In this document: piece after piece, positions 35,031-51,504 of the stretch
Numbering within the stretch: the stretch's first letter is position 1
Layout: each line of letters opens with the position of its first letter
Assembly: GCF_019884725.1 (NCBI RefSeq)
Contig: NZ_CP082322.1
Location: 1,860,001-1,924,000, forward strand
DNA length: 64,000 nucleotides
Direction of reading: 5' to 3'
Source of the DNA: Leucobacter tenebrionis
GTDB lineage: Bacteria; Actinomycetota; Actinomycetes; Actinomycetales; Microbacteriaceae
The notes under the pieces: generated by a model
The model's database searches: none
Told to the model about the DNA's origin: nothing
The model's input: the letters and a program-made list of their open reading frames with translations, nothing else
Position numbers and translations under genes: made by a program

Positions 35031-35063
35031 TGAAACAGCTGTGAGCCAGATGAGGGAGTTCCC

Positions 35064-37021: not shown

Positions 37022-37146
37022 GTATTCCGATCCGCCCGGGGCGATTCGACAACACTCCTCCCACCCCTGGCTTTTTGTTTCACATTAAGCCAAAATTGGA
37101 TCAGGACGGGTTCACGTCCGCACGCACCGACTCCGAAAGGCCTGCC

Positions 37147-37891: not shown

Positions 37892-39079
37892 TCAGCTCAG
37901 CGGCAGCGACGTGAACCGCGCCTCGGGCGCGAGGAACCTGGCCGGGTTCATGAATCCGACCTCGGTGACCGTGGCCCCGTCCACCGCCAGATCGGCGACG
38001 ATCGCTCCCATCCCGGAGGCCATCTTGAAGCCGTGGCCCGAGAGCCCCACCGCCGTGATGACCCCCTCCATGCCCGGAACCGCGCCCAGCAGGGCGGTCT
38101 CGTCAGGCAGGTAGCCGTCGGCGCAGGTCGCTACGCGCACCGGCTCCGGGATCAGATCCGGCATGAACTCCCGCACCCACGACCGGATGGGGTCGATGTG
38201 CTCGGGCTCCCACACGAGAGGTCGCTCCATCGACTCGACCTCGTCCATGTAGACGCTGCCGGAGACCTTGATCGTCCAGCCGTCGGCGCTCGGGAAACCG
38301 TAGAGGCGGGCGCCGCCGTCAGATCGCTCGCCATCCTCCGCGCGCCGCAGAAAGACCGGCATGCCCTCGCGGCGGAACTCCGCCGGGTTGCGCATGGGGA
38401 ACCAGGTCAGGACCTGGGGCAGCACCGCGAGGTGGGTGCCGAGCGCCTCGCAGACCGCACCGGCGCCGTTGCCCTGCGAGATGACCACCCGGGAGGCGAT
38501 GATCTCCTCCTGGTCTGTGCGGACGAGGTAACGGTCGCCGTGGGTCTCGACGCTGTGCGCCTTCCGGTTGCCCAGGAACTCGGCGCCGAGCCGTTCGGCC
38601 TCCGTGAGCGCCGCGATGACGGCCTTCTCGGAACTCAGGTACCCGCCCTCGGGATCGAAGAGCGTCACGTCGCCGTCCCGGATCACATGCTGGGGGTACC
38701 GGTGCCTCGCCTCGTCGCCCCTGAGCAGCTCATGCTCGAGCCCGTTGTCCGCACTCGCGGCCAGGAGCGTCGCCAGGCGAGGGTTGTGCTCATCGTAGAT
38801 CGTCAGTGCGCCGACGGTGTGGAGCAGGGCGGCGCCGCTGATCCGCTCCAGCTCGCGCCAGAGATCCTGCGAGCGCTGCAGGATGGGTGTGTAGTGCCCG
38901 CCCTCCGAGTACACCTTGCGGTAGATGCGGGACTCCCCGGCGTAGGAGGAGAAGGGTCCCGGAATGGAGAATCGGTCGACCCCGATGACCCGCAGCCCCC
39001 GGGAGGCGAGCTGCCATGCAGCCATGCTACCCACCGACCCGACTCCTACGATGACGACGTCCGCTTCGCGCGCACTCAT
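37892..39079 (-). CDS. FAD-dependent amine oxidase, MSOX/MTOX-type
   Basis: Flavoprotein oxidase of 395 residues like monomeric sarcosine oxidase or N-methyltryptophan oxidase. The N-terminal ADP-binding motif is VVIVGVGSVGSMAAWQLASRG; a VDRF segment binds the ribose. The late TCADGYLPDE keeps the Cys that holds FAD covalently in this family, and GLSGHGFKMASGMG is the C-terminal FAD contact. It oxidises an N-methyl or secondary amine, releasing H2O2. Last gene of the eleven-gene leftward cluster, 59 bp after the HAD gene. Confidence 0.88.
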   Translation of the reverse strand: MSAREADVVIVGVGSVGSMAAWQLASRGLRVIGVDRFSIPGPFSSYAGESRIYRKVYSEGGHYTPILQRSQDLWRELERISGAALLHTVGALTIYDEHNPRLATLLAASADNGLEHELLRGDEARHRYPQHVIRDGDVTLFDPEGGYLSSEKAVIAALTEAERLGAEFLGNRKAHSVETHGDRYLVRTDQEEIIASRVVISQGNGAGAVCEALGTHLAVLPQVLTWFPMRNPAEFRREGMPVFLRRAEDGERSDGGARLYGFPSADGWTIKVSGSVYMDEVESMERPLVWEPEHIDPIRSWVREFMPDLIPEPVRVATCADGYLPDETALLGAVPGMEGVITAVGLSGHGFKMASGMGAIVADLAVDGATVTEVGFMNPARFLAPEARFTSLPLS

Positions 39080-39138
39080 GTTTCCACCTTACTTTCGTTG
39101 TCGTATCCCACGATCGCGCGGGCTCACGGAACTCGGGG

Positions 39139-39816
39139 TCAGGCCCCGACGCGGTCGGCCACACCCGCCAGGGTGTCGATCCACGCGTTCACACCCCTGA
39201 TATCTGGGTCGAAGCCGCGGTCGATGTAGGCCTGGTTCTTCATGCCGAGCTGCTGGCCGGGCAGCCAGTCGAACCACAGGTGGGCCGAGACGTGCAGCAG
39301 ATCCATCGGCTGCGCGTCGAGCTGGTCGAACATGTAGTGGAACGCGGCGTAGTTGGGTTTGTACGCCCGACCCTGCTCGGCCGTGAACACCCGGTGGAAG
39401 TCGACGCCGAGCTTCTCGACGTTGCGCATCACGAGGGCGTCGCAGTGGTTCGTGTAGATCACGAGCGGGTATTCAGCCGCGAGGCGCTGCAGCGGCTCGA
39501 CCACGTCGGGGTGCGGCCCCCACGTGCCGAGGGCGTCGATGAGCGCGTCGACGTCGCTCTGCTTGAACTGGATCCTCCACTTGTTGCAGGTGCGCTGCCA
39601 GGAGTCGCGGATCACGCGTGTGTAGACCTTGTACGCGCCGATCACCTCGGCGTCGCGGAAGATGCTGAAGTCGCGCGCGAACCTCGGGGCGGCCTCCTCG
39701 CCGACGACATCGCGGACGAGCTCCGCAGCCGTCTCGCGCCACTCGAGCTTGATGAGCGTGCCGAGCATGTCGAAGCTGATGAACTTCGGGCTCAGCGGGG
39801 CAGGGGATTCAGACAT
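39139..39816 (-). CDS. HAD-superfamily protein, haloacid dehalogenase type II-like (copy 2)
   Basis: HAD hydrolase of 225 residues, paralogue of the gene at 37147 on the other side of one oxidase gene. Motifs are SFDMLGTLIKL, YTNHCDALV, RAYKPNYAAF and VSAHLWFDW. As in copy 1 the expected Tyr of motif 1 and Asn of motif 4 are replaced (Leu and His); in addition the motif 2 Ser is Thr. It lies 48 bp after the SDR stop, with GAGAGGA upstream. Hydrolase, probably of a phosphate ester or related intermediate, not proven. Confidence 0.82.
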   Translation of the reverse strand: MSESPAPLSPKFISFDMLGTLIKLEWRETAAELVRDVVGEEAAPRFARDFSIFRDAEVIGAYKVYTRVIRDSWQRTCNKWRIQFKQSDVDALIDALGTWGPHPDVVEPLQRLAAEYPLVIYTNHCDALVMRNVEKLGVDFHRVFTAEQGRAYKPNYAAFHYMFDQLDAQPMDLLHVSAHLWFDWLPGQQLGMKNQAYIDRGFDPDIRGVNAWIDTLAGVADRVGA

Positions 39817-39864
39817 GGGCGGTCCTCTCGGTGGGTGTGCGGTGGGTGATGGATGCGCACGGGC

Positions 39865-40617
39865 TCACGCCGCCGTGTATCCGCCGTCGACGGGCAGCAC
39901 GGCGCCGGTGATGTAGGAGGCGGCCGGTGAGGCCAGGAAGTAGATGGGATCGGCGACCTCGCGGGGCGAGGCGAGGCGGCCGAGCGGGATTGTCGAGGCA
40001 CGCTGCGCGGTGTAGCCTTCGGGATCTGGGCGCTGCCCGAACGACTCGGCGATCTTCGGCGTGAGCGTGAGGCCCGGCGCGACCGCGTTGACGCGGATGC
40101 CCTGCGGCGCGAGCTCGACGGCGGCGGCCCGAGCGAACATGATGAGCCCGCCCTTCGCGGCCGAGTAGAGCACCTGACCGGCGATCCCGACCATGCCGAG
40201 CCGCGAACTCACGCACACGATCGAACCGCGCTCGCGGCTCATGAGCGGCGTCGCGTGCTTGACGACCGTGAAGACGCTCAGCAGGTTGGCGTCGAGCACC
40301 TGCGCGGCGGCGTCGACCGGCATCTCCGTCAGCTCGGCATCCTTCTGCAGTCCGTGGCAGAGCACAAGCGCGTCGATCTCCCCGAACTCGCTCGCGGCAT
40401 CCGCGGCGAGCTCGCGCACGAACGCCTCATCGCCGAGGTCGCCCGACAGGTAGCGCTCCCCCTCCCGAAGGGACGCGGGCGGCTCGGCGCGGCGTCCGGT
40501 GAGGAGCACGCGGTCGCCTGCCTCGCGGAAGCGCTCGGCGACCGCCTCGCCGATGCCGCTGGAGGCGCCGGTGATCAGCACCCGCAGGGGCTCGCGATCG
40601 ACCGCGGACGAACTCAC
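39865..40617 (-). CDS. short-chain dehydrogenase/reductase
   Basis: Classical SDR of 250 residues. It has the cofactor motif TGASSGIGEAV (residues 16-26), the active-site Ser of SIVCVSSRLG, and YSAAKGG with the catalytic Tyr-x-x-x-Lys, then the end sequence ITGAVLPVDGGYTA. The GGRR following strand 2 (TGRRAEPP) favours NADP. It starts with GTG overlapping the RidA stop (GTGA). It probably reduces or oxidises a keto/hydroxy intermediate of the cluster. Confidence 0.93.
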   Translation of the reverse strand: MSSSAVDREPLRVLITGASSGIGEAVAERFREAGDRVLLTGRRAEPPASLREGERYLSGDLGDEAFVRELAADAASEFGEIDALVLCHGLQKDAELTEMPVDAAAQVLDANLLSVFTVVKHATPLMSRERGSIVCVSSRLGMVGIAGQVLYSAAKGGLIMFARAAAVELAPQGIRVNAVAPGLTLTPKIAESFGQRPDPEGYTAQRASTIPLGRLASPREVADPIYFLASPAASYITGAVLPVDGGYTAA

Positions 40618-41078
40618 GTCAGCGCCTCGACGATCATCTGCACCTCGACCGGGCTGGTGCGCGGCAGGGCGGCGACGCCGATCGCGGTGCGCGCGTGACG
40701 GCCGTGCTCTCCGAGCACCTCCACCAGCAGCTCGCTGCCGGCGTCGGCCACGTTCGACTGACCGCCGAAGTCGGGGGCGCTCGCCACGAAGACGAGCATT
40801 TGCACGATCCGCAGCTTGTCGAGGCCGCCGACGGCGTGCGCGCCGACGGCGAGCGCGTTGATCGTCGCGATGCGCATCGATTGGCGGGCGGTCTCGACGT
40901 CGATGTCGGCGCCCACCGTACCGACGGCCGGCAGCTCCCCGTTCACGTAGGGCATCTGGCCCGAGATGTGGATCTGGCCTGAGCCGGACTCGCGATAGTT
41001 GATATAGAACGGATCGAGCTTCACCTCGGGCAGCTCGACGCCGAGTTCGGCGAGCGCTTCTGCTGGTGTCCGGGTCAC
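40614..41078 (-). CDS. RidA-family enamine/imine deaminase
   Basis: Rid protein of 154 residues, longer than RidA by an N-terminal extension of about 20. The core has GQIHISGQMPYVNG, and RTAIGVAALPRTSPVEVQ retains the active Arg that orients the enamine carboxylate. RidA hydrolyses 2-aminoacrylate made by PLP dehydratases; the next gene upstream is such an enzyme, which makes the partnership persuasive. GTG start with AAGGA upstream. Confidence 0.9.
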   Translation of the reverse strand: MTRTPAEALAELGVELPEVKLDPFYINYRESGSGQIHISGQMPYVNGELPAVGTVGADIDVETARQSMRIATINALAVGAHAVGGLDKLRIVQMLVFVASAPDFGGQSNVADAGSELLVEVLGEHGRHARTAIGVAALPRTSPVEVQMIVEALT

Positions 41079-41125
41079 TGTGGGGTCCTTTCGTGTGGGT
41101 CGGCCTCGCGGCGGAGGGCGGATGG

Positions 41126-42229
41126 TCAGTTGAGTTGGCCACGGGCGTCGATGCGCCAGGTACCCAGGTAGCGCCCTTGGCGATCGCTGAGGATCACCTC
41201 GTCGAAGCTGTTCATCACCGGGCAGACATGATGCGGCACAATCGGCAGCACGCGGCCCGGCGCGGGCCGCTCCCCGCCCTCGGGCAGGGTGAGGAAGCCG
41301 TGGTACTCGTTGAGCACGCTCAGCACGCCGCCCACCTCGGGCACCTGGCCGTAGCCGCGGTCGTAGTTGCCCTCGCGCGCGAGCGCCTTGGTGCCCGCAT
41401 CGACGATGACGTGCGCGAACCCCTGGTCGCTGACGACCGTCGTGGCGACGAAGAAACCGATGTCCTCGGCCTCGCAGTTGCCGAGCGCGTAGTTGTCATG
41501 ATCGTTGAGCACGTACTCCCCCGGCCGCACCTCGGTGATCACGTCGTGGGTGCTGAAGGCGACGGTGGGGCTCGATCCCGCGCTCACGACCTCGGCGCGC
41601 ACGCCCGCCGCCGCGAGCGCGTCGACGGCGCCGCGCAGCGCGCGGGCCTGATCCTCGGCCGCAGCCTCCCGGTTGCCGGGCTTGCCGCCGTGGCCCGGGT
41701 AGGTGAAGACGCCGTCGACGCGCAACCCTCGTGCACCGGCGTATCGCGCGAGGTCCCCGGCCTCCTCGGGAGCCACTCCCGACCGGCCAGCGCCGCTGTC
41801 GACCTCGATGACGAGCCCGATGAGGTCGGGATCGTCCGAGAAGGCCCGCGCGACGGCGTCGATCGCGACCGTGTTCTCGATGCCGAGCCGCAGCTTCGTC
41901 GTGCCGGCGACGGCCCGCAGGCGCCGCCCCTTCTCTCCCACGGCGATGAGGGGGTAGGCGAGGAAGATGTCGCCGAAACCGGCCGCCGCGAAGATCTCGA
42001 CCTCGCCGAGCGTGCCGGCCGTGATCCCCGCCGCCCCGGCGGCGAGCTGCCTCCGCGCGATCTCGATGCTCTTGTGGGTCTTGACGTGCGGGCGCAGCGC
42101 CTTGCCGTGGCGGTCGGCGAAGGCCTGCATGCGCATGATGTTCTCCTCCATCACGTCGAGGAGCACGACCGGAGCGGGGGTGCTCAGCCGGTCGCCGAGC
42201 CGGTCCACGATCGTCTGGAACTGCTGCAC
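41126..42229 (-). CDS. PLP-dependent D-serine dehydratase/D-threonine aldolase-family enzyme
   Basis: Fold-type III PLP enzyme of 367 residues. The alanine-racemase-like barrel carries the Schiff-base Lys in RPHVKTHKS (near residue 46). The C-terminal domain has PHHVCPVMNSFDEV, where His-x-Cys is the zinc pair of D-serine dehydratases (D-threonine aldolases have His-x-Asp). It should act on a D-amino acid with a beta-hydroxyl group, giving an enamine that RidA, encoded next, would hydrolyse. GTG start with GGAGAG five bases upstream; 11 bp after the aldehyde dehydrogenase stop. Confidence 0.88.
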   Translation of the reverse strand: MQQFQTIVDRLGDRLSTPAPVVLLDVMEENIMRMQAFADRHGKALRPHVKTHKSIEIARRQLAAGAAGITAGTLGEVEIFAAAGFGDIFLAYPLIAVGEKGRRLRAVAGTTKLRLGIENTVAIDAVARAFSDDPDLIGLVIEVDSGAGRSGVAPEEAGDLARYAGARGLRVDGVFTYPGHGGKPGNREAAAEDQARALRGAVDALAAAGVRAEVVSAGSSPTVAFSTHDVITEVRPGEYVLNDHDNYALGNCEAEDIGFFVATTVVSDQGFAHVIVDAGTKALAREGNYDRGYGQVPEVGGVLSVLNEYHGFLTLPEGGERPAPGRVLPIVPHHVCPVMNSFDEVILSDRQGRYLGTWRIDARGQLN

Positions 42230-42240
42230 GTTCTCTCTCC

Positions 42241-43752
42241 TCAGAATGTCCGGTTGAGGATCACGTTCTTCGGCTCGCTCATCTCGCGGACGGCCTCGGC
42301 CACACCCTCGCGGCCCACGCCCGAGCGCTTCGAGCCGCCGAACGGCATCGCGTCGATCCGGAAGTCGCTCGTGTCGTTGACGAGCACGCTGCCCATGTGC
42401 AGCCGGTCGACCGCGTGCATGGCCGTGCGGAGCGAGGCCGTGAAGACGCCCGCCTGCAGCCCGTAGTCGGTATCGTCGATCGCCTCGAGGGCGGCGTCGA
42501 CGTCGGTGAACGGCTCGATGAGCACGACCGGTCCGAACACCTCCTCGCGATAGATGCGGGCACCGCCCGGCACGTCGACGAGCACCGTGGGCCAGTAGAA
42601 CGCGCCCTCGCGGCGGCGGCCGCTCACCGCTCGGGCACCGCCCGCGACGGCCTCCTCGACCCACTCCTCGACGCGGCGGGCCTCGCGCTCGCCGATGAGC
42701 GGCCCCACGTCCGTCGTCGCGTCGCGCTTCGAACCGACCGTGAGCCGCTCGGCACCCGCCGTGACGAGCGAGACGAGTCGCTCGTAGTGCGAGGCGTGAA
42801 CGAAGACCCGCTGCACCGAGAGGCAGTTCTGCCCGGCCACGCCGAAGGCGCCGTCGACGATGCCCGCGGCCGCGGTCTCCACGTCGCCGTCCTCGCAGAC
42901 GAGCACGGCGTTGTTACCGCCGAGCTCCATGAGCATCTTGCGGGCGCCGGCGATCCGGGCGATCGTGTCGCCCGTCGCGGGGCCGCCCGTGAAGCTGACC
43001 GCGGCGATACGGGGATCGCCCACGAGCGCCGAGCCGACCTCGCGGTCGGACGCGAGCACGGCCATGCGCCCCGCGGGCATGCCGGCGCGCAGCAGGATGT
43101 CGTGCAGCGCGAGCGCCGACAGCGGCGTGACGGCGGCGGGCTTGAGCACGATGGCGTTGCCCGCGAGCAGACCGGGGCCGACCTTGTGAGCGACGAGGTT
43201 CATGGGATCGTTGAACGGCGTGATGGCGGCGACGATGCCGAGGGGCACGCGCCGGTAGTAGCCGAACTTGCCCGAGCCGCGGGCCGTGTCCTCGAACGGC
43301 AGGGTCTCGCCCTCCAGCAGGGCGGCCGAGTGCGCCGAGATCTTCAGGGTCTCGGCGGTGCGGGCCACCTCGCGGGTGGCCTCGGTGATCGTCTTGCTGC
43401 CCTCCGAGGAGATGATGCGGGCGAGGCGGTCGCCCTCCTCGCGCACGAGGTCGGCGGCGCGCTCGAGCACCTCGCGGCGCTCCCACAGTTCCCAGCGATC
43501 CTCGCGCAGGCTGCGCTGGACGCCGGCGACGGCCCGGTCGACGTCATCAACCGTTCCCTCGTAGACGCGCGCTACGAGGGCGCCGTCCTCGGGGTCCGTC
43601 ACCTCCAGGGTGAGGGGTCCCTGCACCCACTCCCCGTCGACGTACCCGCCTCCGGGGATCCCGAGGTCGCGGAGGAGCGCGTCCTCCGCGACGGCCGGGA
43701 CGGACTGCGGCTCGCACAGGCACTCGGTCGCGCAATCGGTCATCGTCGACAT
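42241..43752 (-). CDS. aldehyde dehydrogenase
   Basis: NAD(P)-dependent ALDH of 503 residues. It has the general base Glu in MLMELGGNN (near 283), the nucleophile Cys in GQNCLSVQRV (near 317), FTGGPATGD, and the EVFGPVV and PFGGSKRSG end motifs. The cysteine-rich N-terminus (TDCATECLCE) is unusual for this family and might bind metal. Its substrate would be the aldehyde released by the amine oxidase encoded just upstream. Confidence 0.93.
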   Translation of the reverse strand: MSTMTDCATECLCEPQSVPAVAEDALLRDLGIPGGGYVDGEWVQGPLTLEVTDPEDGALVARVYEGTVDDVDRAVAGVQRSLREDRWELWERREVLERAADLVREEGDRLARIISSEGSKTITEATREVARTAETLKISAHSAALLEGETLPFEDTARGSGKFGYYRRVPLGIVAAITPFNDPMNLVAHKVGPGLLAGNAIVLKPAAVTPLSALALHDILLRAGMPAGRMAVLASDREVGSALVGDPRIAAVSFTGGPATGDTIARIAGARKMLMELGGNNAVLVCEDGDVETAAAGIVDGAFGVAGQNCLSVQRVFVHASHYERLVSLVTAGAERLTVGSKRDATTDVGPLIGEREARRVEEWVEEAVAGGARAVSGRRREGAFYWPTVLVDVPGGARIYREEVFGPVVLIEPFTDVDAALEAIDDTDYGLQAGVFTASLRTAMHAVDRLHMGSVLVNDTSDFRIDAMPFGGSKRSGVGREGVAEAVREMSEPKNVILNRTF

Positions 43753-43777
43753 CTTTCCTCCCTCTCGTTCGTCGTGT

Positions 43778-45061
43778 TCAGCTCAGCTTGTCCTGCAGCG
43801 CGAAGAAAGCGCCGCCGGCGCGGAGATGCGCCCAGGGGTTGCCGAAGTAGCCGGGGATCCACGGGTTCTTCAGGTCGCGCCAGATGTTGGCCTCGGGGTT
43901 GCCCTTGACCGCCTCAACCATGACCTTGCCCATGTAATTGGCCATCTGCACGCCATGGCCGTTGTAGCTGTGGCTGTAGAACATGCCCTCGTGCTGGCCG
44001 GCGTGCGTCATCATGTCCATCGAGATATCGACAAGGCCGCCCCACATGTAGTCGATGCGGGCGTCGCGCAGCTGGGGGAAAACCTCGCGCATCGCCTTGG
44101 TCAGGATCTCGCCGCTCTCGCGGTCCTGCGACGGGTCGCTGAGCGCGAAGCGCGCGCGACCGCCGAAGAGCAGGCGGTTATCCGGCGTGATCCGGAAGTA
44201 GTGCGTGAAGTTGACCATCGTCGAGGTCATCCGGCGGTTCGGCAGGAGCTCGTCGACGATCTCCTGCGGCAGCGGCTCCGTCACGACGATGAAGCTGCCG
44301 ACCGGGATGATGCGGCGCTGATTCCACCCGAAGGGCTTGCCCGTGTAGCCGCTCGTGCCGAGGATCACGGCGCCGGCTTTGACGTTGCCGCGGGTGGTCT
44401 TGAGGATGTGCATCGCCCCGCTGCCGATGCGCTCGGTGGCGAGCACCTCGGCGCGCTCGTGGATCGTCGCGCCGGCCTCGACCGCGAGCCTGGCGAGCTC
44501 GTGACCGAACTTGCCCACGTGCATGCCGGCGCCGAGGGGGTCGACGATGGCACCGTAGTAGGAGTCGGAGCCGACCTCGCTGCGGATGTTCGCGCGGTCG
44601 ACGAGGCTCACGGGCTGCCCGACGAGGTTCTGCAGCAGCTCCGCGCTCTGCTTCATCCCCTCGAAGTGGCCCGGCTTGACGGCGAGGTTCATCTTGCCGG
44701 TGCGGGCGTAGTCGACGTCGAGGTTGTGCTCGCGCACGAGGTCCTCGATAAGATCGATGGCCTTGTTGTACTCCTTGAAGTAGGCGATGGCGCGCTGCTC
44801 GCCGTAGCGCTTCACGGCGCTGCCGAAGCCGATGGCGAGACCGGTGGTGGCCATGCCGCCGTTGCGCCCCGAGGCGCCCCAGTTGACCGTGTGCGCCTCG
44901 AGCACCGCGACCGAGAGCCCCTGTTTGGCTGCGTGGTAGGCGGCCGAGAGCCCGGTGAAGCCGCCGCCGACCACGGCGACATCGACCTCCCTGGGGATCT
45001 CGGTTCGACTGTAGTCGCCGCTCGGGGTGGCGGTATCGAGCCAGTAGGAGTGCATCTTCAC
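43778..45061 (-). CDS. FAD-dependent amine oxidoreductase, PuuB/DadA-like
   Basis: Flavoprotein of 427 residues. The FAD motif VAVVGGGFTGLSAAYHAAK (near 30) is followed by NWGASGRNGGM, a signature of gamma-glutamylputrescine oxidase-type proteins, and ends with YNGHGVQMANYMGK. It oxidises an amine to an aldehyde or imine. I chose GTG at 45061 (GGAG upstream); an ATG two codons later is possible. It lies 92 bp after the ABC binding-protein stop, with a hairpin between, and 25 bp before the aldehyde dehydrogenase. Confidence 0.88.
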   Translation of the reverse strand: MKMHSYWLDTATPSGDYSRTEIPREVDVAVVGGGFTGLSAAYHAAKQGLSVAVLEAHTVNWGASGRNGGMATTGLAIGFGSAVKRYGEQRAIAYFKEYNKAIDLIEDLVREHNLDVDYARTGKMNLAVKPGHFEGMKQSAELLQNLVGQPVSLVDRANIRSEVGSDSYYGAIVDPLGAGMHVGKFGHELARLAVEAGATIHERAEVLATERIGSGAMHILKTTRGNVKAGAVILGTSGYTGKPFGWNQRRIIPVGSFIVVTEPLPQEIVDELLPNRRMTSTMVNFTHYFRITPDNRLLFGGRARFALSDPSQDRESGEILTKAMREVFPQLRDARIDYMWGGLVDISMDMMTHAGQHEGMFYSHSYNGHGVQMANYMGKVMVEAVKGNPEANIWRDLKNPWIPGYFGNPWAHLRAGGAFFALQDKLS

Positions 45062-45110
45062 GTTCGGGTGCTCCGGGGTTTCTCTCGTCGGGATGGATCG
45101 GGTGGTTCGC

Positions 45111-45142
45111 GGTGGGCGGCGCAGGCGGGGGCGCCGCCCACC
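45111..45142. terminator. hairpin between binding-protein and oxidase genes
   Basis: Perfect 12-bp stem (45111-45122 with 45131-45142) and 8-nt loop just after the binding-protein stop. It probably lowers read-through from the transporter genes or stabilises their message. Confidence 0.6.
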
Positions 45143-45153
45143 GCGGCGGCGCC

Positions 45154-46665
45154 CTACTCGGCGGGCTTGGTGAGTTCGGTGATGAGGCGTCGCTCGAGCG
45201 GGTCGCGCACGACATCGGCGAAGGTGCCGGCCTCGCCCTGCACCACGCGGTCGTGCACGAGCGGGATCGCGGCGTCGAGCTGCAGCACGGCGGCCTCGGC
45301 CTCCATCGTCGCCTTCTGGCGCTCCTCGCCGAGCGGTACCTGCTGGCCGGCGGTGATGAGGCTGTCCACGGTGTCGTCGCAGAGCTGCGCGACGTTCGAG
45401 CCGCCGCCGCACATGAAGTCCTGTGCGAGGAAGGACAGCGGGTCGCCCGTGTCGAGCAGCGTGTTGCGGGAGTAGATGACCGCGTCGAAGCCGCCGCCGA
45501 GCATCTCCTTCTCCATGTTCACGTACTCGCGCACGTCCTGAGTGACGACGAAGCCGGCGTCTTCCAGCTGCTTCTCGAGCTGCACCGCGATCTCAGGAAG
45601 TTCGGCACGGTCGGTGTAGGTAGCGAGCGTGATCTCGACGCCCGAGGCGTCACCCGGCTCGGCGGCCGATTCCACGTCGTCGCGCAGCTCGGCGGCCCAG
45701 GGGATGGCGGGGCCGAGCAGGCCGACCGAGGGGTCGGCGTGGCCCTCGTAGACGCCGTCGACGATGCCCGAGGGGTCGATCGCCGCGCGGGCCGCCGCAC
45801 GCACGGCGGGGTCGGCGAAGGGACCCGTCTTCGTGTTCAGCGCGAGGTAGGTGGTGCGAGTCTGCTGCACCTCGTGCGCCGTGCCCTCCTCGAGGAGGTC
45901 GATCTGCGACACGGGGATGCTCTCCGCGACGTCGGTCTCACCGGAGCGGAGGGATCCCGCGCGCGCCGCACCGTCGGGCACGAAGGAGGCGTCGATACCG
46001 GAGATCGCCGCCGGTTCGCCCCAGTAGTCGTCGAAGCGGTCGAGGGTGGCGGTCGTGCTGCCGTTGACGTCGACCAGTTCGAACGGGCCGGTGCCGGTAC
46101 CGATCGGGGTGACGGTGCCGTCGTCGTTGTAGGCGGCGGCTGAGAGGATCGACATCTGCGGGCTCGCGAGGCGGTTCGGCAGCAGCGGATCCGGCGCATC
46201 GGTCGTCACCGTGACCTCGAACTCGCCTGTCGCCTCGGTCGTGATCGCGACGCCGTTCAGCGCACGGGGCGGCGGCGACGCGGCCATCGCCTTGTCGAGG
46301 GTGTTCTTGACCGCCTCGGCGTTGAAGGGGGTGCCGTCGTGGAAGGTCACATCGTCGCGCAGCGCGAACTTCCAAGTGAGGTCGTCGACCTGCTCCCACT
46401 CGGTGGCGAGCATCGGCTCGATCTCGATGTCGTCGTTGAGGCGCACGAGCGTCTCGCCGGTGCTCCAACGCGACAGCTTGAACGCGTCATCGCTGAAGGG
46501 GTTGAGGTTGGACTTGGGCGGCTGCATGAAGGCGACCTGGATCCGGTCGTCGCCGTCGCCTCCGCCGTTGCCGCCTCCTCCGCTAAAGCAGCCGCTGAGG
46601 AGCAGCGCGGCGGAGCCGGTGAGAGCGAGGGCGGCCGCGACTCTGCGGCCCGTGTGCTTGCTCAT
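45154..46665 (-). CDS. ABC transporter substrate-binding lipoprotein, SBP family 5
   Basis: Periplasmic-type binding protein of 503 residues, attached by the lipobox LLSGC (Cys 25). A Gly-rich linker is followed by the DppA/OppA/NikA fold: LVRLNDDIEIEPMLA, WKFALRDDVTFHDGTPFNA (visible as the cluster signature near 100-118), and GTGPFELV. Family 5 proteins bind peptides, opines, nickel chelates or glycosides; the cluster around it suggests an amino-acid conjugate or opine. The ATG at 46665 is 37 bp after the permease stop. Confidence 0.93.
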   Translation of the reverse strand: MSKHTGRRVAAALALTGSAALLLSGCFSGGGGNGGGDGDDRIQVAFMQPPKSNLNPFSDDAFKLSRWSTGETLVRLNDDIEIEPMLATEWEQVDDLTWKFALRDDVTFHDGTPFNAEAVKNTLDKAMAASPPPRALNGVAITTEATGEFEVTVTTDAPDPLLPNRLASPQMSILSAAAYNDDGTVTPIGTGTGPFELVDVNGSTTATLDRFDDYWGEPAAISGIDASFVPDGAARAGSLRSGETDVAESIPVSQIDLLEEGTAHEVQQTRTTYLALNTKTGPFADPAVRAAARAAIDPSGIVDGVYEGHADPSVGLLGPAIPWAAELRDDVESAAEPGDASGVEITLATYTDRAELPEIAVQLEKQLEDAGFVVTQDVREYVNMEKEMLGGGFDAVIYSRNTLLDTGDPLSFLAQDFMCGGGSNVAQLCDDTVDSLITAGQQVPLGEERQKATMEAEAAVLQLDAAIPLVHDRVVQGEAGTFADVVRDPLERRLITELTKPAE

Positions 46666-46702
46666 GGTGATGGGTACCTTTCGTTGGGTGGGGCTGACGG
46701 GG

Positions 46703-48604
46703 TCAGGAGGGGTCGCGGACGGTGGACATGTCGACAACGCCGGTCGGGGTGAGTCCCGTCGAGGGCGATTGCGCACTGCGCCGGGAACGCCGGCGTCGGC
46801 TCGGGCGGGCACGGCCCCCGCGGAAGTCGATGCTGAGGCTCGAGAGGGAGACCGCGAAGATCGAGAGGAGCACGAGCGCTCCGGCCGGCACGAGCACCAC
46901 GAGCGGGGCGCGCTCCACGTAGGGCATACCCTCGGCGAGCACGAGGCCCCAGTCCGACTGCGGCGGCTGCGGGCCGAGGCCCAGGAAGCCGAGCGCCGCG
47001 AGCGCGAGGCAGATGCCGGGGAGGCGGAGGCACGCGTGGCGGAACACCGGCCCGACGACGCTCGGCAGCACGTAGCGCAGCATGAGGCGCGTATTGCCCA
47101 CGCCGAGCACGGGGGCGATCTTGATGTGGGGCTGCGCCTTCACCTCGGCGACGAGCGCGGCGGTGTGCGCGGCGAGCGGGGCCCAGCTCACGAGCGTGAC
47201 CGCGATTGCGGCGCCGAAGGAGGAGGGGCCGAGCACGGCGGCGACGATGAGGCCGGCGAGGATCGGGGGCGCCGCGTTGGTGACCTCGATCGGTCCTGCG
47301 CCGAGGTTGGGGAACATGCCGACGACGAGGCCGATCAGCAGGCAGATCGCTGCGACGATCGCGCCGACCCCGATCGTCGACAGCGCGCCGTGCGAGATAC
47401 GGGCGAGCACGTCGCGACCGCTGGCGTCGGCGCCGAGCGGCAGTTCCCAGTTCGGCGGCTGCAAGCGGGTGTAGTCGAGGGCGTAGGGGTCGCGGGGCAG
47501 ACCGGCGACGACGATCACGACGAGCACGAGGAGCATGGCCGCGGGGAGCACGAGCGCCCACTTCGAGCTCGGGGTCTTCGGCACGGCCGCGGGGAGCGAG
47601 TTCGACCGCAGGGCCGGGCCGAGCAGGATCCGGCGCAGCAGCGTCGCGCCGATGCCGAACGCGACGGCGAGCAGCATCAGCAGGATCACGCCGCCCTGCA
47701 GCGTCGGCAGGTCCTGCGACTGCGCGGCGGCGAGCGTCGCACGGCCGATGCCGGGGATGGCGTACACCTCCTCGACCACGACGGCCCCCGCCGTGATGCC
47801 GACGAGGATGAGCGACATCGGCGCGGTGACGCCGGGCAGGGTGCGGCGGATCGCGGCGAGCACGATGCGCGTCTTCGAGTAGCCCGCGACCTGCCAGGTG
47901 GCGACCCAGCGCTCGCTGAACGTGCTGGCGAGCGCATCCGAGAGCAGTCGGCCGAGGAAGCCGCCGGCCGGCAGGCCCATTGAGAGCGCGGGCAGCACCA
48001 GGTAGTCGAGGCCGCGCCACCCGAAGGGAGGGAACCAGCCGAGCCAGACGGCGAAGACGACGAGCAACACTGAGGCGAGGAGGAACTCGGGGAGCGCTGT
48101 GAACGCGGCTGCGAGGCCGCCGCCCGTTCGATCCGAGCGGCCGGCGAGCCCGCGGCGGAAGGTCGGGATGGTGAGCAGGCCGCCGAGCACGATCGCGATG
48201 ACGAGGGCGGCCAGCATGAGCGTCAGGGACGCGCCGAGCGCGTCGAGCATCTCGGGGAGCACGGGCTTGCGCGTGGTCCAGGAGACGCCGAAGTCGCCTC
48301 GAACGGCATTGCCCGCCCAGGCGAGGAAGGCGCCGAAGACGCCGTTCTCGAGCCCGAGCTCCTGCCGGATCGCCTCGAGCGCCTGCGGATCCATCTCGCC
48401 CTCGGCGTAGCGCGAGCGGTAGACCGACTCTGCGATGTCACGGCCGGAGAGGAGCGGCAGGATGCCGAGGAGGAAGATCACCACGAGGATCGTGACGACC
48501 CGCGAGAGGGCCGAGACGATCGCGGCCTTCGAGCCGCTGGAGAACGACGAGGTGCGGCGCTGCGCGCGCCGGAGGGCGGGGACCGCCTGAGTTGAGATCG
48601 CCAT
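46703..48604 (-). CDS. ABC transporter permease, fused DppB- and DppC-type domains
   Basis: One chain of 633 residues joins both permeases of a peptide-type importer. The DppB half (about 25-325) has GNAVRGDFGVSWTTRKPV and the loop GYSKTRIVLAAIRRTLPG (EAA-like). The DppC half (about 340-610) has LGADASGRDVLARISHGA, the hallmark of that family, and a second EAA-like loop LGVGNTRLMLRYVLPSV. A basic Ser/Arg-rich tail ends it. Usually these are two genes. It starts 19 bp after the ATPase stop. Confidence 0.93.
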   Translation of the reverse strand: MAISTQAVPALRRAQRRTSSFSSGSKAAIVSALSRVVTILVVIFLLGILPLLSGRDIAESVYRSRYAEGEMDPQALEAIRQELGLENGVFGAFLAWAGNAVRGDFGVSWTTRKPVLPEMLDALGASLTLMLAALVIAIVLGGLLTIPTFRRGLAGRSDRTGGGLAAAFTALPEFLLASVLLVVFAVWLGWFPPFGWRGLDYLVLPALSMGLPAGGFLGRLLSDALASTFSERWVATWQVAGYSKTRIVLAAIRRTLPGVTAPMSLILVGITAGAVVVEEVYAIPGIGRATLAAAQSQDLPTLQGGVILLMLLAVAFGIGATLLRRILLGPALRSNSLPAAVPKTPSSKWALVLPAAMLLVLVVIVVAGLPRDPYALDYTRLQPPNWELPLGADASGRDVLARISHGALSTIGVGAIVAAICLLIGLVVGMFPNLGAGPIEVTNAAPPILAGLIVAAVLGPSSFGAAIAVTLVSWAPLAAHTAALVAEVKAQPHIKIAPVLGVGNTRLMLRYVLPSVVGPVFRHACLRLPGICLALAALGFLGLGPQPPQSDWGLVLAEGMPYVERAPLVVLVPAGALVLLSIFAVSLSSLSIDFRGGRARPSRRRRSRRSAQSPSTGLTPTGVVDMSTVRDPS

Positions 48605-48623
48605 TGGGTGTTCCTTCCCGGTC

Positions 48624-50276
48624 TCAGATCGCCGGTTCGAGGGCGTCGGGCATGACGTGGAGCACGGGAATCGCGTCGAGCAGCTCCTTGGTGCGCTCGT
48701 GCCGCGGATCCGCGAGGAGCTGCCGGGTGGATCGATCCTCGACCACCTCGCCGGCGTGCATCACGACCGTGCGCTCGCAGAGGTTCGCGACCATCGAGAG
48801 GTCGTGCGAGACGACCACGATCCCGGTCCCCCGCTCCTCGGAGATGCGTCGGAGCAGGGCGACGATCGACTCGCGCATGGGCAGGTCGAGTCCGCTCACC
48901 GGCTCGTCGGCGAGCAGGAAGTCCGGCCGCGTGGCGATCGCGCGGGCGATCGCGAGTCGCTGCGCCTGACCGCCGGAGAGCTCGTTCGCGCGGCGGTGCA
49001 GGAACTTCTCGTCGAGGCCGACCGAGTCGAGCGCCTCGCGCACCATCGTGTCGTGGTCGCCCGGCACGCCGAGCCGCACGAGCGGCTCGCGCACGAGCTT
49101 GCGCACCGTCATGAGCGGGTCGAGGGTGCTCGCGGGATCCTGCGGCACATACTGGACCTTGCGGCGGTACCACTTGAGCTTCTTCACGTCGGCCGGGTAG
49201 ACCTCCCGGCCCGAGCAGGTGACCGCGCCGGTGTCGGTCGTGTCGAGGGCGAGCATGAGGCGCAGTAGCGTCGTCTTACCCGAGCCGGAGACACCGACGA
49301 TGCCGACGCGCTCGCCCTCGCGGATCACGAGGTCGGTGGGGAAGAGCGCCGTCTTCATCTCGCGCTTGCCGAAGAGTCCCTTGCGGGGCATCGGGTACTC
49401 GCGGCTCACGTCGCCGATGTCGTAGAAGACCTTGGCCTTCGGCTGCTCCGCGGCGTCCTCGGCGCGGAGCTCGGCGAGCTCCCGGCGGAACTGCTGCACG
49501 TACGGATCGACCGTGGCGGCGCGGGCGGCGCGGATCAGCTCCCGGGTGTATGGGTTCTCCGGTGCGGCGAAGATGGAGTGGATCTGCCCCTGCTCGACGA
49601 CGTCGCCGTCCTTCATCACCACGGAGTCGCTGCACAGCTCGGAGGCCACCGCGAAGTCGTGCGTGATGAACAGCAGCGCCGGGGTGTGCTGACCGGCCGT
49701 GTACTTCTTCAGCACATCGAGCACGCGCTTCTGAGTGACGACGTCGAGTGCGGTGGTCGGTTCGTCGGCCACCATCAGGCGGGTGTTGCAGGCGAGCGCC
49801 AGCGCGATGCAGACGCGCTGCCGCTGACCGCCGGAGAGCTCGGCTGAGAAGCGGTCGATGATGCCCGCGGGATCGGGGAGCCCCACGGACTCCGCGAGCT
49901 CCACGGCCGCCTGAGCTGCGTCGGCTCGCGAGAGCCCGCGGTGCCGCCGCAGCGGCTCGACGAGCTGCTCGCGAATGCGTACGAGGGGGTTGAGAGCCAC
50001 GGCCGAGTCCTGGAAGACCATCGCCACGCGGGCCTCCTCGGGCCGCTTGGAGGCCGGCACGCCGAGCACCTCGACGCCATTGACCCTGATGCTGCCCTCG
50101 GTCACGGCGTTGGCCGGGAGACGGCCGAGCACCGCGCTCGCCGTGAGCGACTTGCCCGATCCCGACTCTCCGAGCAGGCAGACGCGCTGGCCCTTGCCCA
50201 CCGAGAACGTGGTGCCGTTCACGATGGTGCGACCGCCGATGGCGATCCGCAGGTCGGTCACTTCGAGACTGTTCAT
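48624..50276 (-). CDS. ABC transporter ATPase, fused DppD- and DppF-type domains
   Basis: Two nucleotide-binding domains in 550 residues. Domain 1 (about 3-255): Walker A GESGSGKS, signature LSGGQRQRVCIA, Walker B LMVADEPTTALD. Domain 2 (about 285-540): Walker A GVSGSGKTT, signature LSGGQAQRLAIA, Walker B FLLADEPVSGLD. It powers the importer with the fused permease and the lipoprotein. GGAGGATC precedes the ATG. First gene after the dyad operator and promoter at 50.33 kb. Confidence 0.95.
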   Translation of the reverse strand: MNSLEVTDLRIAIGGRTIVNGTTFSVGKGQRVCLLGESGSGKSLTASAVLGRLPANAVTEGSIRVNGVEVLGVPASKRPEEARVAMVFQDSAVALNPLVRIREQLVEPLRRHRGLSRADAAQAAVELAESVGLPDPAGIIDRFSAELSGGQRQRVCIALALACNTRLMVADEPTTALDVVTQKRVLDVLKKYTAGQHTPALLFITHDFAVASELCSDSVVMKDGDVVEQGQIHSIFAAPENPYTRELIRAARAATVDPYVQQFRRELAELRAEDAAEQPKAKVFYDIGDVSREYPMPRKGLFGKREMKTALFPTDLVIREGERVGIVGVSGSGKTTLLRLMLALDTTDTGAVTCSGREVYPADVKKLKWYRRKVQYVPQDPASTLDPLMTVRKLVREPLVRLGVPGDHDTMVREALDSVGLDEKFLHRRANELSGGQAQRLAIARAIATRPDFLLADEPVSGLDLPMRESIVALLRRISEERGTGIVVVSHDLSMVANLCERTVVMHAGEVVEDRSTRQLLADPRHERTKELLDAIPVLHVMPDALEPAI

Positions 50277-50325
50277 GATCCTCCGCGAGTGGTCTCGGGG
50301 CCGGCTCCGGTGCCGACCTTCGGCG

Positions 50326-50359
50326 AGCCTAACCTTTGTCTCGATAGATTGTCAACAAT
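50326..50359 (-). promoter_or_regulatory. GntR-type operator and promoter of the ABC operon
   Basis: ATTGT-CA-ACAAT (50348-50359) overlaps the minus-strand -35 TTGACA (50355-50350); TAGGCT (50331-50326) follows after 18 bp. The ATPase gene starts 50 bp downstream. Confidence 0.72.
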
Positions 50360-50391
50360 CCAACGATTACGAAACGATGTCGCAATACGCG

Positions 50392-51456
50392 TCACACATC
50401 GGCGTCATCGGAGAGCTCCTCGACGACCGCCGCCCCGACCTCCGCGGTCGTGAGCGAGCCGCCGAGGTCCGGGGTCACCTCGCCCCGCTCGATGACGGCC
50501 GTGAACGCCCGCTCCACTGCCTCCGCGCGATCCGCGTGGCCCAGGTGGCGCAGCATCATCGCCCCCGCCCAGATCTGCCCGATGGGGTTCGCGATCCCGC
50601 GCCCCGCGATGTCGGGCGCCGAACCGTGCACGGGCTCGAACATCGAGGGGTGCCTGCCCTCCGGGTTCAGGTTCGCGCTCGGGGCGATGCCGATCGAGCC
50701 GACCGCGCCCGCAACGAGGTCGGAGAGGATGTCGCCGAACAGGTTCGAGGCCACCACCACATCGAGGCTCCGCGGATCCCGGACGGCCCGCGCCGCAAGG
50801 GCATCGATCAGCACCGACTCGAGTTCGATTCCGCCGGCATCTTCGACGACCTCGGCCACGACCTCGTCCCAGAACGGCATCGTGTGGATGATGCCGTTCG
50901 ACTTCGTCGCCGACACGAGGCGACCGGAACGCCCCCTCGCGACTTCGACGGCGTACCGGGCGATACGCTCAATGCCGTGACGCGTGAAGATCGCCTGCTG
51001 GTGCGCGGCCTCGAACGGCGTTCCGGGGTAGCTGCGCCCGCCGACCGAGGAGTACTCGCCCTCGACGTTCTCGCGCACGATCACAGTGTCGATCTCGGGA
51101 TCGCCCGCCAGCGAGGAGCGCACACCCGAGAACGAGCGCACCGGCCGGAGATTCACGTACTGATCGAATTCGCGCCGGATCGGAATGAGCATGCCCCACA
51201 GCGTCTCGACGTCCGAGACCTCCGGGTGCCCCACCGCCCCGAGGAACACGGCGTCGGTTGCAGCCATCGTCTCGATCGCATCGACGGGCATCATACGGCC
51301 GTGGGAGCGGAAGTAGTCGCTGCCCCACGGCTGCTCCCGCCACTCGAGCCGGATCCCGCGGTCGCGGGTGGCGGCGTCGAGCACCTCCATGGCCACCGGC
51401 ATCACCTCGGGCCCGATACCGTCACCGGCCAGCACCGAGATCGTGTGCGCGTTCAT
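50392..51456 (-). CDS. tartrate/D-malate/isopropylmalate dehydrogenase family enzyme
   Basis: NAD-dependent beta-decarboxylating dehydrogenase of 354 residues. GDGIGPEVM starts the chain; WGSDYFRSHGRMMP near 45 is closer to tartrate/D-malate dehydrogenases than to LeuB. ENVEGEYSSVGGR has the catalytic Tyr, SATKSNG the Lys, and DVVVASNLFGDILSD the metal Asps. It would turn a 2-hydroxy-dicarboxylate into a 2-oxo acid plus CO2. The ATG at 51456 has AAGGAG nine bases upstream. First gene of the leftward block; its upstream region carries a dyad like the other GntR sites. Confidence 0.9.
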   Translation of the reverse strand: MNAHTISVLAGDGIGPEVMPVAMEVLDAATRDRGIRLEWREQPWGSDYFRSHGRMMPVDAIETMAATDAVFLGAVGHPEVSDVETLWGMLIPIRREFDQYVNLRPVRSFSGVRSSLAGDPEIDTVIVRENVEGEYSSVGGRSYPGTPFEAAHQQAIFTRHGIERIARYAVEVARGRSGRLVSATKSNGIIHTMPFWDEVVAEVVEDAGGIELESVLIDALAARAVRDPRSLDVVVASNLFGDILSDLVAGAVGSIGIAPSANLNPEGRHPSMFEPVHGSAPDIAGRGIANPIGQIWAGAMMLRHLGHADRAEAVERAFTAVIERGEVTPDLGGSLTTAEVGAAVVEELSDDADV

Positions 51457-51485: not shown

Positions 51486-51504
51486 ACTGTCAACAATCTA
51501 CAAT
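51486..51504. promoter_or_regulatory. GntR-type operator with extra half-site
   Basis: ACTGT-CA-ACAAT (51486-51497), followed by CTACAAT (51498-51504), the same extra half-site arrangement as at 33882-33900. It lies between the divergent dehydrogenase and aminotransferase genes. A weaker ATTG-ACAAT pattern is at 51555-51567. Confidence 0.6.

Follow-up and report, generated by a model that had tools for sequence, protein, structure and literature searches.

The window, a 64,000-nucleotide stretch of the Leucobacter tenebrionis genome, contains eleven minus-strand genes that occupy positions 37892-51456 with intergenic gaps of -4 to 115 bp, and this leftward run is genuine. Several of the long open reading frames were over-extended; we chose starts at 46665 (binding protein), 45061 (PuuB-like oxidase), 42229 (PLP dehydratase) and 40617 (SDR). 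A previous, sequence-only reading had taken the eleven genes as the complete unit. The genes are real, but the unit is incomplete: the cluster reaches past both 37892 and 51456 to about 33.9-57.0 kb, because extra genes recur in relatives and share an operator. The added members comprise three enzymes (a second HAD hydrolase, HAD2; a class III aminotransferase; and a dehydrogenase of succinate-semialdehyde type), two transporters (a CDF protein for metal efflux and an MFS protein) and regulators. HAD2 and the aminotransferase are also present in the clusters of relatives, and the CDF and GntR genes are likewise found there again. The features are as follows (L numbers denote compared loci).

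33882..33893, no strand: operator ATTGTCAACAAT, ahead of the CDF gene, as it also is in L034, L053 and L055
33918..34976, +: CDF-family metal cation efflux protein (PF01545; TIGR01297, 275 bits)
35019..35030, no strand: operator ATTGTCCACAAT, before gntR
35064..35783, +: GntR/FCD regulator, candidate operator reader (PF00392+PF07729; three relatives 63-75% identical)
35816..37021, +: ROK/MarR-type regulator (54% in L064, 35% in L050)
37018..37824, +: HAD2, type II HAD hydrolase, proposed to open the azetidine ring (part of the operon in L032-L034)
37892..39079, -: MSOX/SolA-type FAD amine oxidase, N-methyltryptophan-oxidase-like, proposed second arm-removing oxidase (PF01266)
39139..39816, -: HAD, further type II HAD hydrolase (TIGR01428, 129.9 bits, cut-off 125.4)
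39865..40617, -: SDR dehydrogenase/reductase (PF13561; 62-73% in relatives)
40614..41078, -: RidA-like protein (PF14588/PF01042)
41126..42229, -: DSD, D-serine-dehydratase-like PLP enzyme with alanine-racemase fold, proposed beta-hydroxy amino acid dehydratase (PF14031)
42241..43752, -: aldehyde dehydrogenase 1, ALDH (PF00171)
43778..45061, -: PuuB-like DAO-family amine oxidase (PF01266; start GTG 45061)
45154..46665, -: NikA-type family-5 solute-binding lipoprotein, SBP (PF00496; best PDB match nickel-binding protein 3t66, 4.5e-38)
46703..48604, -: fused Opp/Nik-type permease (two PF00528 stretches)
48624..50276, -: fused NikD-NikE-type ATPase (TIGR02770, 368.5 bits, cut-off 318.7; TIGR02769, 349.2 bits, cut-off 332.55)
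50348..50359, no strand: operator ATTGTCAACAAT, ahead of the importer operon, a position shared by L032, L033 and L034
50392..51456, -: TDH, tartrate/D-malate dehydrogenase family enzyme (isocitrate/isopropylmalate-type dehydrogenase family PF00180; best PDB match tartrate dehydrogenase/decarboxylase 3flk, 1.5e-103)
51486..51497, no strand: operator ACTGTCAACAAT, one mismatch, divergent promoter
51619..52908, +: class III (omega-type) aminotransferase (PF00202; 80-82% in L032/L033)
52968..54383, +: aldehyde dehydrogenase 2, ALDH2, succinate-semialdehyde type, start uncertain (TIGR01780, 525.5 bits, cut-off 646.35)
54426..55367, -: second GntR/FCD regulator (56-57% in L054/L056)
55360..56577, +: MFS transporter, possible exporter (three relatives have it close to their clusters at 56-60%; R. 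opacus pROB01 42%)
56609..57016, +: ArsR-type regulator adjoining the MFS gene (PF12840/PF01022; R. opacus pROB01 39%)

The operator ATTGTNNACAAT has four exact sites in the 3.38-Mb genome, three inside this locus, one of them preceding the CDF gene; the common operator marks four promoters in the locus. A GntR regulator, which we infer to be the operator reader, would govern the importer, the efflux gene, its own gene and the TDH/aminotransferase promoter. Gene content, conservation and the shared sites are established directly.

Conservation was assessed by comparing the loci around 21 clade members of the PuuB-like oxidase with 20 paralogue loci over a 9.4 kb range. The clade comprises 19 further members at 43-81% identity, the next paralogues being at ≤33% except for one 103-aa fragment. 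A type II HAD lies within range in 20/21 clade loci and 1/20 paralogue loci (one-sided Fisher 1.6e-9), TDH in 11/21 and 0/20, a family-5 SBP in 8/21 and 0/20, and MSOX in 12/21 and 3/20. ALDH was weakly enriched (p 0.03), the aminotransferase showed no significant enrichment (13/21 vs 9/20, p 0.22), and CDF occurred at only 4/21 clade loci. Operator sites were found in 8/21 clade loci and in none of the f5 g91 genomes, a group whose large genomes lack a family-5 SBP or Opp-type permease at eight of nine clade loci. Among plasmids, oxidase and HAD are less than 400 bp apart in 22/25 compared records (17-381 bp), and TDH is present in five of 11 loci scanned. MSOX is absent from the examined stretches of L032-L034, and the L034 stretch is without TDH and aminotransferase. 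The core gene set is patchy yet conserved across phyla, far above chance, which bears out the co-occurrence that the sequence-only reading had put forward as a check. That reading gave the HAD no role, and the HAD proved to be the most constant specific neighbour; it also passed over the second HAD and the aminotransferase/ALDH pair, did not assign the dehydrogenase to the tartrate/D-malate type, and left out the metal-efflux gene under the common operator.

The importer resembles Nik/Cnt-type nickel/opine-metallophore systems in that its ATPase clears the NikD and NikE equivalog cut-offs and its SBP is nearest to nickel-binding proteins; SBP matches include nickel-binding and opine-type binders. 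It differs in that the SBP falls far under the NikA equivalog cut-offs (222.5 vs 600 for NF045468; 120 vs 393 for TIGR02294) and in its association with enzymes predicted to destroy the ligand. CDF genes lie near the cluster in three relatives (84-91% identical). The L032 cluster contains a siderophore-type binding protein (PF01497) and exporter-fold ABC genes, the R. opacus region holds metalloregulator and CDF genes, and that of Variovorax holds fur.

Among PDB sequences, L-azetidine-2-carboxylate hydrolase (A2CH) is the top match for both window HADs (HAD2: 3smv/8ywo/9v14, 5.8e-18; HAD: 2.3e-16), and it is their nearest solved enzyme, yet at only about 25% identity. HAD2 scores 110.8 in TIGR01428, under the cut-off of 125.4. 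We picked A2CH positions D12, T16, S/T121, N122, K152, H177 and D185 from the alignment, with catalytic roles that we assume from dehalogenases. All are kept in both window HADs (alignment rows L141 and L156); only H177 discriminates, being Y, M or L in seven of the eight most distant HAD-II rows (L129, L130, L132, L157, L158, L162 and L165; L163 has H). In a tree that we rooted on distant HAD-II rows, the window HADs fall outside the A2CH clade, in its sister group. In the clusters of S. meliloti, R. etli and Alloyangia, by contrast, the second HAD lies inside that clade (support 0.95) and shares 37-39% identity with A2CH across 223 aa. Several HADs that neighbour DSD or RidA form a separate clade (support 1.0), which does not contain the window HAD beside the SDR. 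Type II HADs also perform other chemistry. A functional fungal A2CH homologue at 44.5% is described in the accessible text of PMC8016842, where the A2CH product, 2-hydroxy-4-aminobutyrate, is transaminated and enters GABA-type metabolism.

The DSD best matches D-threo-3-hydroxyaspartate dehydratase (3wqc, 7.6e-45) and carries HHVCPVMN at residue 333. Its PF14031 domain and His+Cys metal ligands are dehydratase-like; the aldolase has His+Asp, as distinguished in the available part of PMC4401734. Against the model of the BhcC 3-hydroxy-D-aspartate aldolase it scores under the cut-off (NF045642, 126.9 bits vs 690). The nearest solved relative is also reported to accept L-erythro-3-hydroxyaspartate (accessible portion of PMC8071972), so that of the beta-hydroxy D-amino acid proposed earlier, the beta-hydroxy amino acid part stands and the D-configuration is not required. 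The MSOX-type oxidase passes the SolA model NF008425 (298.8 bits, cut-off 257), SolA substrate identity being a family prediction. TDH lies under the tartrate dehydrogenase (TTC) TIGR02089 cut-off (459.8 vs 470.4 bits), which is nevertheless its best-scoring family (next NF006048, 458 of 501). In R. etli, the TDH carries the annotation 'trifunctional D-malate dehydrogenase/tartrate dehydrogenase' and adjoins SSADH, ALDH, oxidase and HAD.

Because of the HADs, the aminotransferase/ALDH pair, the tartrate/D-malate-type dehydrogenase and metal efflux under the shared operator, we favour a plant metallophore of the azetidine type (nicotianamine, a mugineic-acid phytosiderophore or both) as the compound that the locus probably imports and degrades (probability about 0.6). 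The conserved co-occurrence supports what the sequence-only reading envisaged, one unit that imports and breaks down a nitrogen compound containing secondary-amine links as well as a beta-hydroxy amino acid part; its generic N-methyl amino acid, opine or peptide substrate gives way to the metallophore. We infer the substrate, every reaction and the order of steps. Uptake of the metal-loaded ligand would fall to the NikA-type lipoprotein together with the fused Opp/Nik ABC proteins, with the CDF protein pumping out surplus metal. A HAD would then attack C2 of the strained azetidine ring and open it with inversion, leaving a chain that bears an (R)-2-hydroxy-4-aminobutyrate arm. Cleavage of this arm at the secondary amine by the PuuB-like oxidase would yield (R)-malate semialdehyde, which ALDH could convert to D-malate and TDH to pyruvate and CO2. 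The MSOX-like oxidase may remove the other arm. The remaining 2,4-diaminobutyrate core, or 3-hydroxy-diaminobutyrate/3-hydroxyaspartate in the case of mugineic acid, would be processed either by the aminotransferase with ALDH2 or by the PLP dehydratase with RidA and SDR.

Nickel-binding and opine-type SBP matches, CDF under the common operator and FAD oxidases suited to any secondary amine would also fit another aminopolycarboxylate or opine-type metal chelator without azetidine (staphylopine-like, EDDS, aspergillomarasmine), with the HADs performing unrelated hydrolysis. We consider this unlikely, since it leaves unexplained the constancy of the type II HAD (20/21 vs 1/20), the A2CH-clade HADs in rhizobial clusters and the recurrence of TDH (11/21 vs 0/20). 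Still less probable is a substrate such as free azetidine-2-carboxylate or a small azetidine, the importer and oxidases serving something else in the same regulon: the aminotransferase and SSADH-like ALDH2 fit, and A2CH acts on the free acid with its product leading to GABA-type metabolism (text available from PMC8016842), but neither the PuuB-like-clade oxidase nor a family-5/Nik importer would be required, and the 17-381 bp oxidase-HAD spacing in 22/25 plasmid records is as expected of consecutive steps. The conjugate proposed earlier, an N-alkyl amine joined to a beta-hydroxy D-amino acid (opine or peptide) and not metal-related, agrees with the oxidase, PLP dehydratase and RidA chemistry and with a family-5 SBP, which suits peptides too; we regard it as improbable, because the HADs, TDH, CDF under the operator and the L032 siderophore-type ABC genes remain unaccounted for.

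Two neighbouring pathways, one module made up of oxidase, HAD and TDH and another of HAD, DSD, RidA and SDR that would act on 3-hydroxyaspartate-like amino acids, are a tentative possibility, compatible with the azetidine reading of the first module. Control locus L125 has HAD, DSD, RidA, SDR and MSOX without the clade-I oxidase, L035-L037 carry the DSD-SDR pair without HAD or oxidase, and there is the DSD/RidA-linked HAD clade. However, the modules are interleaved in the window and in G384, in the window within one gene run with a 4-bp overlap, and the window HAD adjoining the SDR falls outside that clade. The Burkholderia, Variovorax and S. meliloti versions include threonine/serine dehydratase and ornithine-cyclodeaminase-like or M20/ArgE proteins, which we take to act on (hydroxy)diaminobutyrate derivatives in ectoine/hydroxyectoine catabolism (eut/doe). 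To our knowledge, that catabolism involves neither HADs nor a PuuB-like oxidase nor TDH, and no ectoine hydrolase is listed in these stretches, whose gene tables are incomplete. For the GNAT of the S. meliloti cluster no PDB match was found, and it therefore lends no support from an Mpr1-like acetyltransferase.

The sequence-only reading knew of no such pathway, and searches of an open-access paper library likewise found none described with this gene set. Azetidine-2-carboxylate utilization by A2CH (Pseudomonas sp. A2C) and AzhA (Aspergillus nidulans) also has a type II HAD as key hydrolase. Unlike the proposed metallophore route, these systems act on the free amino acid, and the accessible accounts mention no Nik/Opp importer, amine oxidases, D-malate dehydrogenase or metal genes (PMC8016842). 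How bacteria consume mugineic and deoxymugineic acid was also the subject of work on Pseudomonas fluorescens SBW25, whose candidates in the available text (porin, transport-associated domain protein, monooxygenase) are absent from the window's gene set; in 2021 that source called the taxa and genes of phytosiderophore metabolism unknown (PMC7786132).

There is an even chance that this is the first gene set for nicotianamine/mugineic-acid metallophore catabolism, a widespread, often plasmid-borne and plant-associated pathway in which a HAD attacks the azetidine ring with inversion. The window's version would also possess a dehydratase-RidA-SDR branch to deal with the additional hydroxyl group of mugineic acid. 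Within that reading, inversion would be the reason why an otherwise odd D-malate dehydrogenase recurs. Soil microbes break down mugineic acids readily (PMC7946895, accessible part), and this destruction of the iron chelators secreted by grasses limits their efficacy; a synthetic analogue replaces the azetidine with a five-membered ring, partly to resist biodegradation (available sections of PMC7946895 and PMC12723747). If correct, the gene set would account for the azetidine ring as the weak point. It supplies metagenome markers for chelator breakdown and makes the question directly testable, for example in S. meliloti 1021. Some cluster carriers originate from human samples, a point against the metallophore reading. 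S. meliloti, which carries the cluster on pSymA, is a symbiont of M. truncatula, and nicotianamine is required for nitrogen fixation in M. truncatula nodules, according to the accessible text of PMC10341464.

The stretch corresponds to positions 1860001-1924000 of a one-contig genome of 3.38 Mb, and the gene calls agree with the eleven minus-strand genes described by the sequence-only reading.

37892-51456, minus strand: eleven genes encoding, in order of transcription, a tartrate/D-malate dehydrogenase family enzyme (TDH), a fused NikDE-type ATPase, a fused permease, a family-5 lipoprotein, a PuuB-like amine oxidase, an aldehyde dehydrogenase (ALDH), a D-serine-dehydratase-like PLP enzyme (DSD), a RidA-like protein, an SDR, a type II HAD and a SolA/MSOX-type oxidase
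39139-39816, minus strand: the type II HAD of this unit
37018-37824, plus strand: a second type II HAD (HAD2)
33918-35783: genes for a CDF metal efflux protein and a GntR regulator (gntR, 35064-35783)
12001-20000: possibly an island, with G+C of 0.61-0.65 where most of the window has ~0.70

The locus is a catabolic operon with its own importer, and the pathway logic proposed for it is new. That the genes form one importer-linked catabolic unit, as had been proposed, was borne out. The limits first drawn hold for the core, but the unit extends further on both sides, where the clusters of relatives add genes. In two genomes of the same genus (L032 and L033) a class III aminotransferase gene is divergent to that for TDH, and a HAD 74% identical to HAD2 lies inside the operon, with permease and lipoprotein on either side. 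A second ALDH, of the succinate-semialdehyde type, is encoded 3' of the aminotransferase, and in L034, L053 and L055 the CDF and GntR genes again lie close to the cluster. The substrate, formerly read as a nitrogen compound containing an N-alkyl amine and a beta-hydroxy D-amino acid, can be refined to the class of azetidine metallophores, at a probability of about 0.6.

The PuuB-like oxidase defines a sharp clade of 20 copies in 15 genomes (43-100% identity; next full-length paralogues ≤33%). Its distribution is patchy: 3/396 sampled genomes of the phylum, 7/396 of the order and 8/394 of the class, with the genome of the window counted in each; HAD2 was found in 5 of 60 relatives. The 20 clade copies and one from Amycolatopsis vastitatis, a single locus from a scan of genome contigs with the PLP enzyme, served as cases; the best 20 of 39 weaker rows from the same genomes were the controls. 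Neighbours were counted within 9.4 kb and compared by Fisher test. A HAD was near the oxidase in 20/21 cases and 1/20 controls, TDH in 11/21 and 0/20, a family-5 solute-binding protein in 8/21 and 0/20, MSOX in 12/21 and 3/20, CDF in 4/21 and 0/20, ALDH in 18/21 and 11/20, and an aminotransferase in 13/21 and 9/20. HAD and TDH are therefore informative neighbours, whereas ALDH and the aminotransferase are not. The DSD count (8/21 against 1/20) is biased upward, because four cases (G014, G291, G047 and Amycolatopsis) came through the PLP enzyme. The window was given, and the 16 cases from oxidase searches alone show HAD in 15 and TDH in 8. Two of the cases, both from G1351, share a single stretch at a distance of 5 kb, and the only case without a HAD (G922_C12) is on a contig that extends just 1.8 kb on one side. 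The single control with a HAD, L125, carries a standalone HAD-DSD-RidA-SDR-MSOX group and, since these other genes are there too, may represent a portion of this pathway that has become separated. Two controls may thus belong to the system, as L125 carries the DSD module and L117 an operator site. In another genome of the genus (G1419:C1:2085617-2090653) both HADs, 83% and 42% identical to HAD2, are encoded 4 kb apart, and because of this proximity it probably carries a further copy of the cluster.

L-azetidine-2-carboxylate hydrolase (A2CH; 3smv, 8ywo, 9v14) is the best PDB-sequence match of both window HADs. A FastTree tree was built from 62 HAD sequences, with its root placed on distant HAD-II rows. 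The window HADs group there with most other cluster HADs as sister to the A2CH clade (a large node printed without its support), and the second HAD of each of the clusters in S. meliloti, R. etli and Alloyangia falls inside that clade (supports 0.99 and 0.95; 37-39% identity to A2CH). In A. nidulans, use of azetidine-2-carboxylate is described as requiring AzhA, a protein with 44.5% identity to the Pseudomonas enzyme; the product of the latter is given as 2-hydroxy-4-aminobutyrate (PMC8016842). For these three clusters at least, an azetidine ring is thus the target with the best support. For the window HADs, with ~25% identity to A2CH, an azetidine target is suggested by their sister-group position, best match and shared residues. 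Elsewhere in G922 (C6:15029-15613; L179:9916-10671) an A2CH homologue (44.6%) lies beside GntR and aminotransferase-like genes, with the oxidase absent from the 19.9 kb read; it is possibly a plain azetidine-2-carboxylate hydrolase.

Other roles for these genes were considered and rejected. The HADs are unlikely to be dehalogenases, as they keep H177 of A2CH, unlike seven of the eight most distant HAD-II rows, and sit in a setting of amine catabolism. Conversion of cis-epoxysuccinate to tartrate would unite a HAD hydrolase with TDH but leaves the oxidases and importer unexplained, and the match to that hydrolase is weak (4.3e-06 and 9.6e-08). Degradation of ephedrine or a simple N-methyl amino acid fits neither HAD nor TDH. 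An Mpr1-like acetyltransferase was considered as independent evidence for azetidine, and the one GNAT tested had no PDB match.

To our knowledge, nicotianamine (structure in PMC10341464) and the mugineic acids (PMC7786132 for how deoxymugineic and mugineic acid are made) are the natural compounds that bind metals and have both secondary amines and an azetidine-2-carboxylate ring. Opening the ring of deoxymugineic acid would leave 2,4-diaminobutyrate carrying two 3-carboxy-3-hydroxypropyl arms. To take this molecule apart, a cell would have to oxidise two amines and the resulting aldehydes and carry out one transamination, a set of steps that matches the window's gene content. Gram-negative versions of the cluster encode threonine/serine dehydratase, ornithine-cyclodeaminase-like and M20/ArgE proteins. 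Such proteins act in hydroxyectoine breakdown, a pathway that also passes through (hydroxy)diaminobutyrate derivatives. Aspartate ammonia-lyase is also encoded in the R. opacus and Variovorax clusters. Mugineic acids are reported to be readily broken down by soil microbes, and the analogue PDMA, in which a five-membered ring replaces azetidine, was aimed at lower strain, lower cost and resistance to biodegradation (PMC7946895; PMC12723747). According to PMC7786132, it is unknown which particular taxa and genes metabolise phytosiderophores; that paper puts forward other candidate genes for strain SBW25. No description of this gene set was found among the matches listed from the open-access literature, a body of text that mostly leaves subscription journals outside.

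Type II HAD dehalogenases invert at C2. Attack at C2 of (S)-azetidine-2-carboxylate would yield an (R)-2-hydroxy-4-aminobutyrate unit. Once the amine carbon of that unit is oxidised, (R)-malate semialdehyde would result, ALDH would convert this to D-malate, and the TDH-family enzyme would decarboxylate D-malate to pyruvate. The window TDH scores 459.8 bits, just below the tartrate dehydrogenase cut-off of 470.4, and its best PDB match is a tartrate dehydrogenase/decarboxylase; the R. etli counterpart, 52% identical, is annotated as a trifunctional D-malate/tartrate dehydrogenase. We infer that the link from HAD inversion to a D-malate-type TDH explains the most unusual recurrent neighbour.

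Going by the configuration of mugineic acid, a 3-hydroxyaspartate derived from it would have the L-erythro form. The best PDB match of the window DSD is D-threo-3-hydroxyaspartate dehydratase (156.5 bits), ahead of D-threonine aldolase (148) and D-serine dehydratase (99.1), and BHAC aldolase BhcC was rejected as its identity (126.9 against a cut-off of 690). It has His-x-Cys; the metal pair is His and Cys in the dehydratases versus His and Asp in the aldolase (PMC4401734). D-threo-3-hydroxyaspartate dehydratase is reported to accept L-erythro-3-hydroxyaspartate too (PMC8071972). The PLP branch could thus act on the mugineic acid core, which bears the 2'-hydroxyl, and RidA would hydrolyse the enamine from the PLP enzyme; this is the weakest part of the proposal. 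A DSD-SDR pair stands without the remaining genes in L035-L037.

Several cluster promoters have a palindrome in common (ATTGTCAACAAT / ATTGTNNACAAT), with GntR as its candidate reader. Exact ATTGTNNACAAT copies lie 5' of CDF (33882), gntR (35019) and the importer operon (50348), a copy with one mismatch lies in the TDH/aminotransferase promoter (51486), and a fifth match (≤1 mismatch) is elsewhere in the window (10798). These five matches at ≤1 mismatch compare with 0.18 expected, and 0/100 shuffles reach five. Genome-wide there are four exact sites, of which three belong to the cluster. The fourth, at genome 1652050 (L117:10751), separates the gene of a DAO-type oxidase, 29% identical to the PuuB-like one, from that of a divergent MFS symporter with an inferred start; beside them are polyamine-type ABC genes and two further amine oxidases, a neighbourhood that possibly belongs to the same regulon. 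Relatives carry the same operator before CDF, GntR and importer genes. In total, 21 sites occur in 8/21 case loci (621,448 bp), none being in case loci of f5 g91 genomes or Amycolatopsis, against one site in the 20 controls (393,130 bp), which is that at genome 1652050. The common operator thus ties the metal exporter to the importer and catabolic genes, at least in the window's order.

The lipoprotein's closest matches are nickel-binding proteins. In L032 the cluster also encodes two ABC proteins of exporter fold and a siderophore-type binding protein (PF01497), an arrangement known from siderophore importers; they lie at the cluster end (L032:271-6183), flanked by two SDR copies, and L033 has the same ABC pair without the binding protein. 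CDF and ArsR/SmtB genes occur in the cluster of R. opacus pROB01, and fur in that of Variovorax. SMa1850, SMa1855, SMa1864 and SMa1869 are presumably genes of the S. meliloti cluster. A table in PMC12542648 places all four in one expression group with the siderophore-synthesis gene rhbB, and the papers found for such gene numbers name no substrate.

In the plasmid collection the oxidase matched 316 records and HAD2 331, with leading genera nearly alike (oxidase/HAD2: Rhizobium 132/140, Sinorhizobium 73/73, Klebsiella 16/16, Paraburkholderia 13/13, Burkholderia 11/11). The two genes were <400 bp apart in 22 of the 25 records common to both sets of matches listed (of 316 and 331). Plasmid loci chosen by oxidase (L067-L072, L128, L186) had a HAD in view in 7/8, the exception being L069; those chosen by HAD2 (L077-L080, L185) had the oxidase in view in 3/5, and TDH was found in 5/11 plasmid loci scanned. 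L186, from the conjugative IncFII/IncR plasmid pHNYF2-1 of Klebsiella pneumoniae (retail vegetable), carries an oxidase-HAD-importer-SSADH-gabT version, with TDH not among the listed genes. A phosphotransferase (APH-type by Pfam in L050 and by annotation in L079 and L185) adjoining a class III aminotransferase-like protein recurs at L050:4999-7409, L079:16630-19681 and L185:9552-12675, and recalls hydroxylysine kinase and phospholyase. The substrate of this group could be a vicinal amino alcohol, for example ring-opened 3-hydroxyazetidine; a type II HAD adjoins the pair in L079 and L185.
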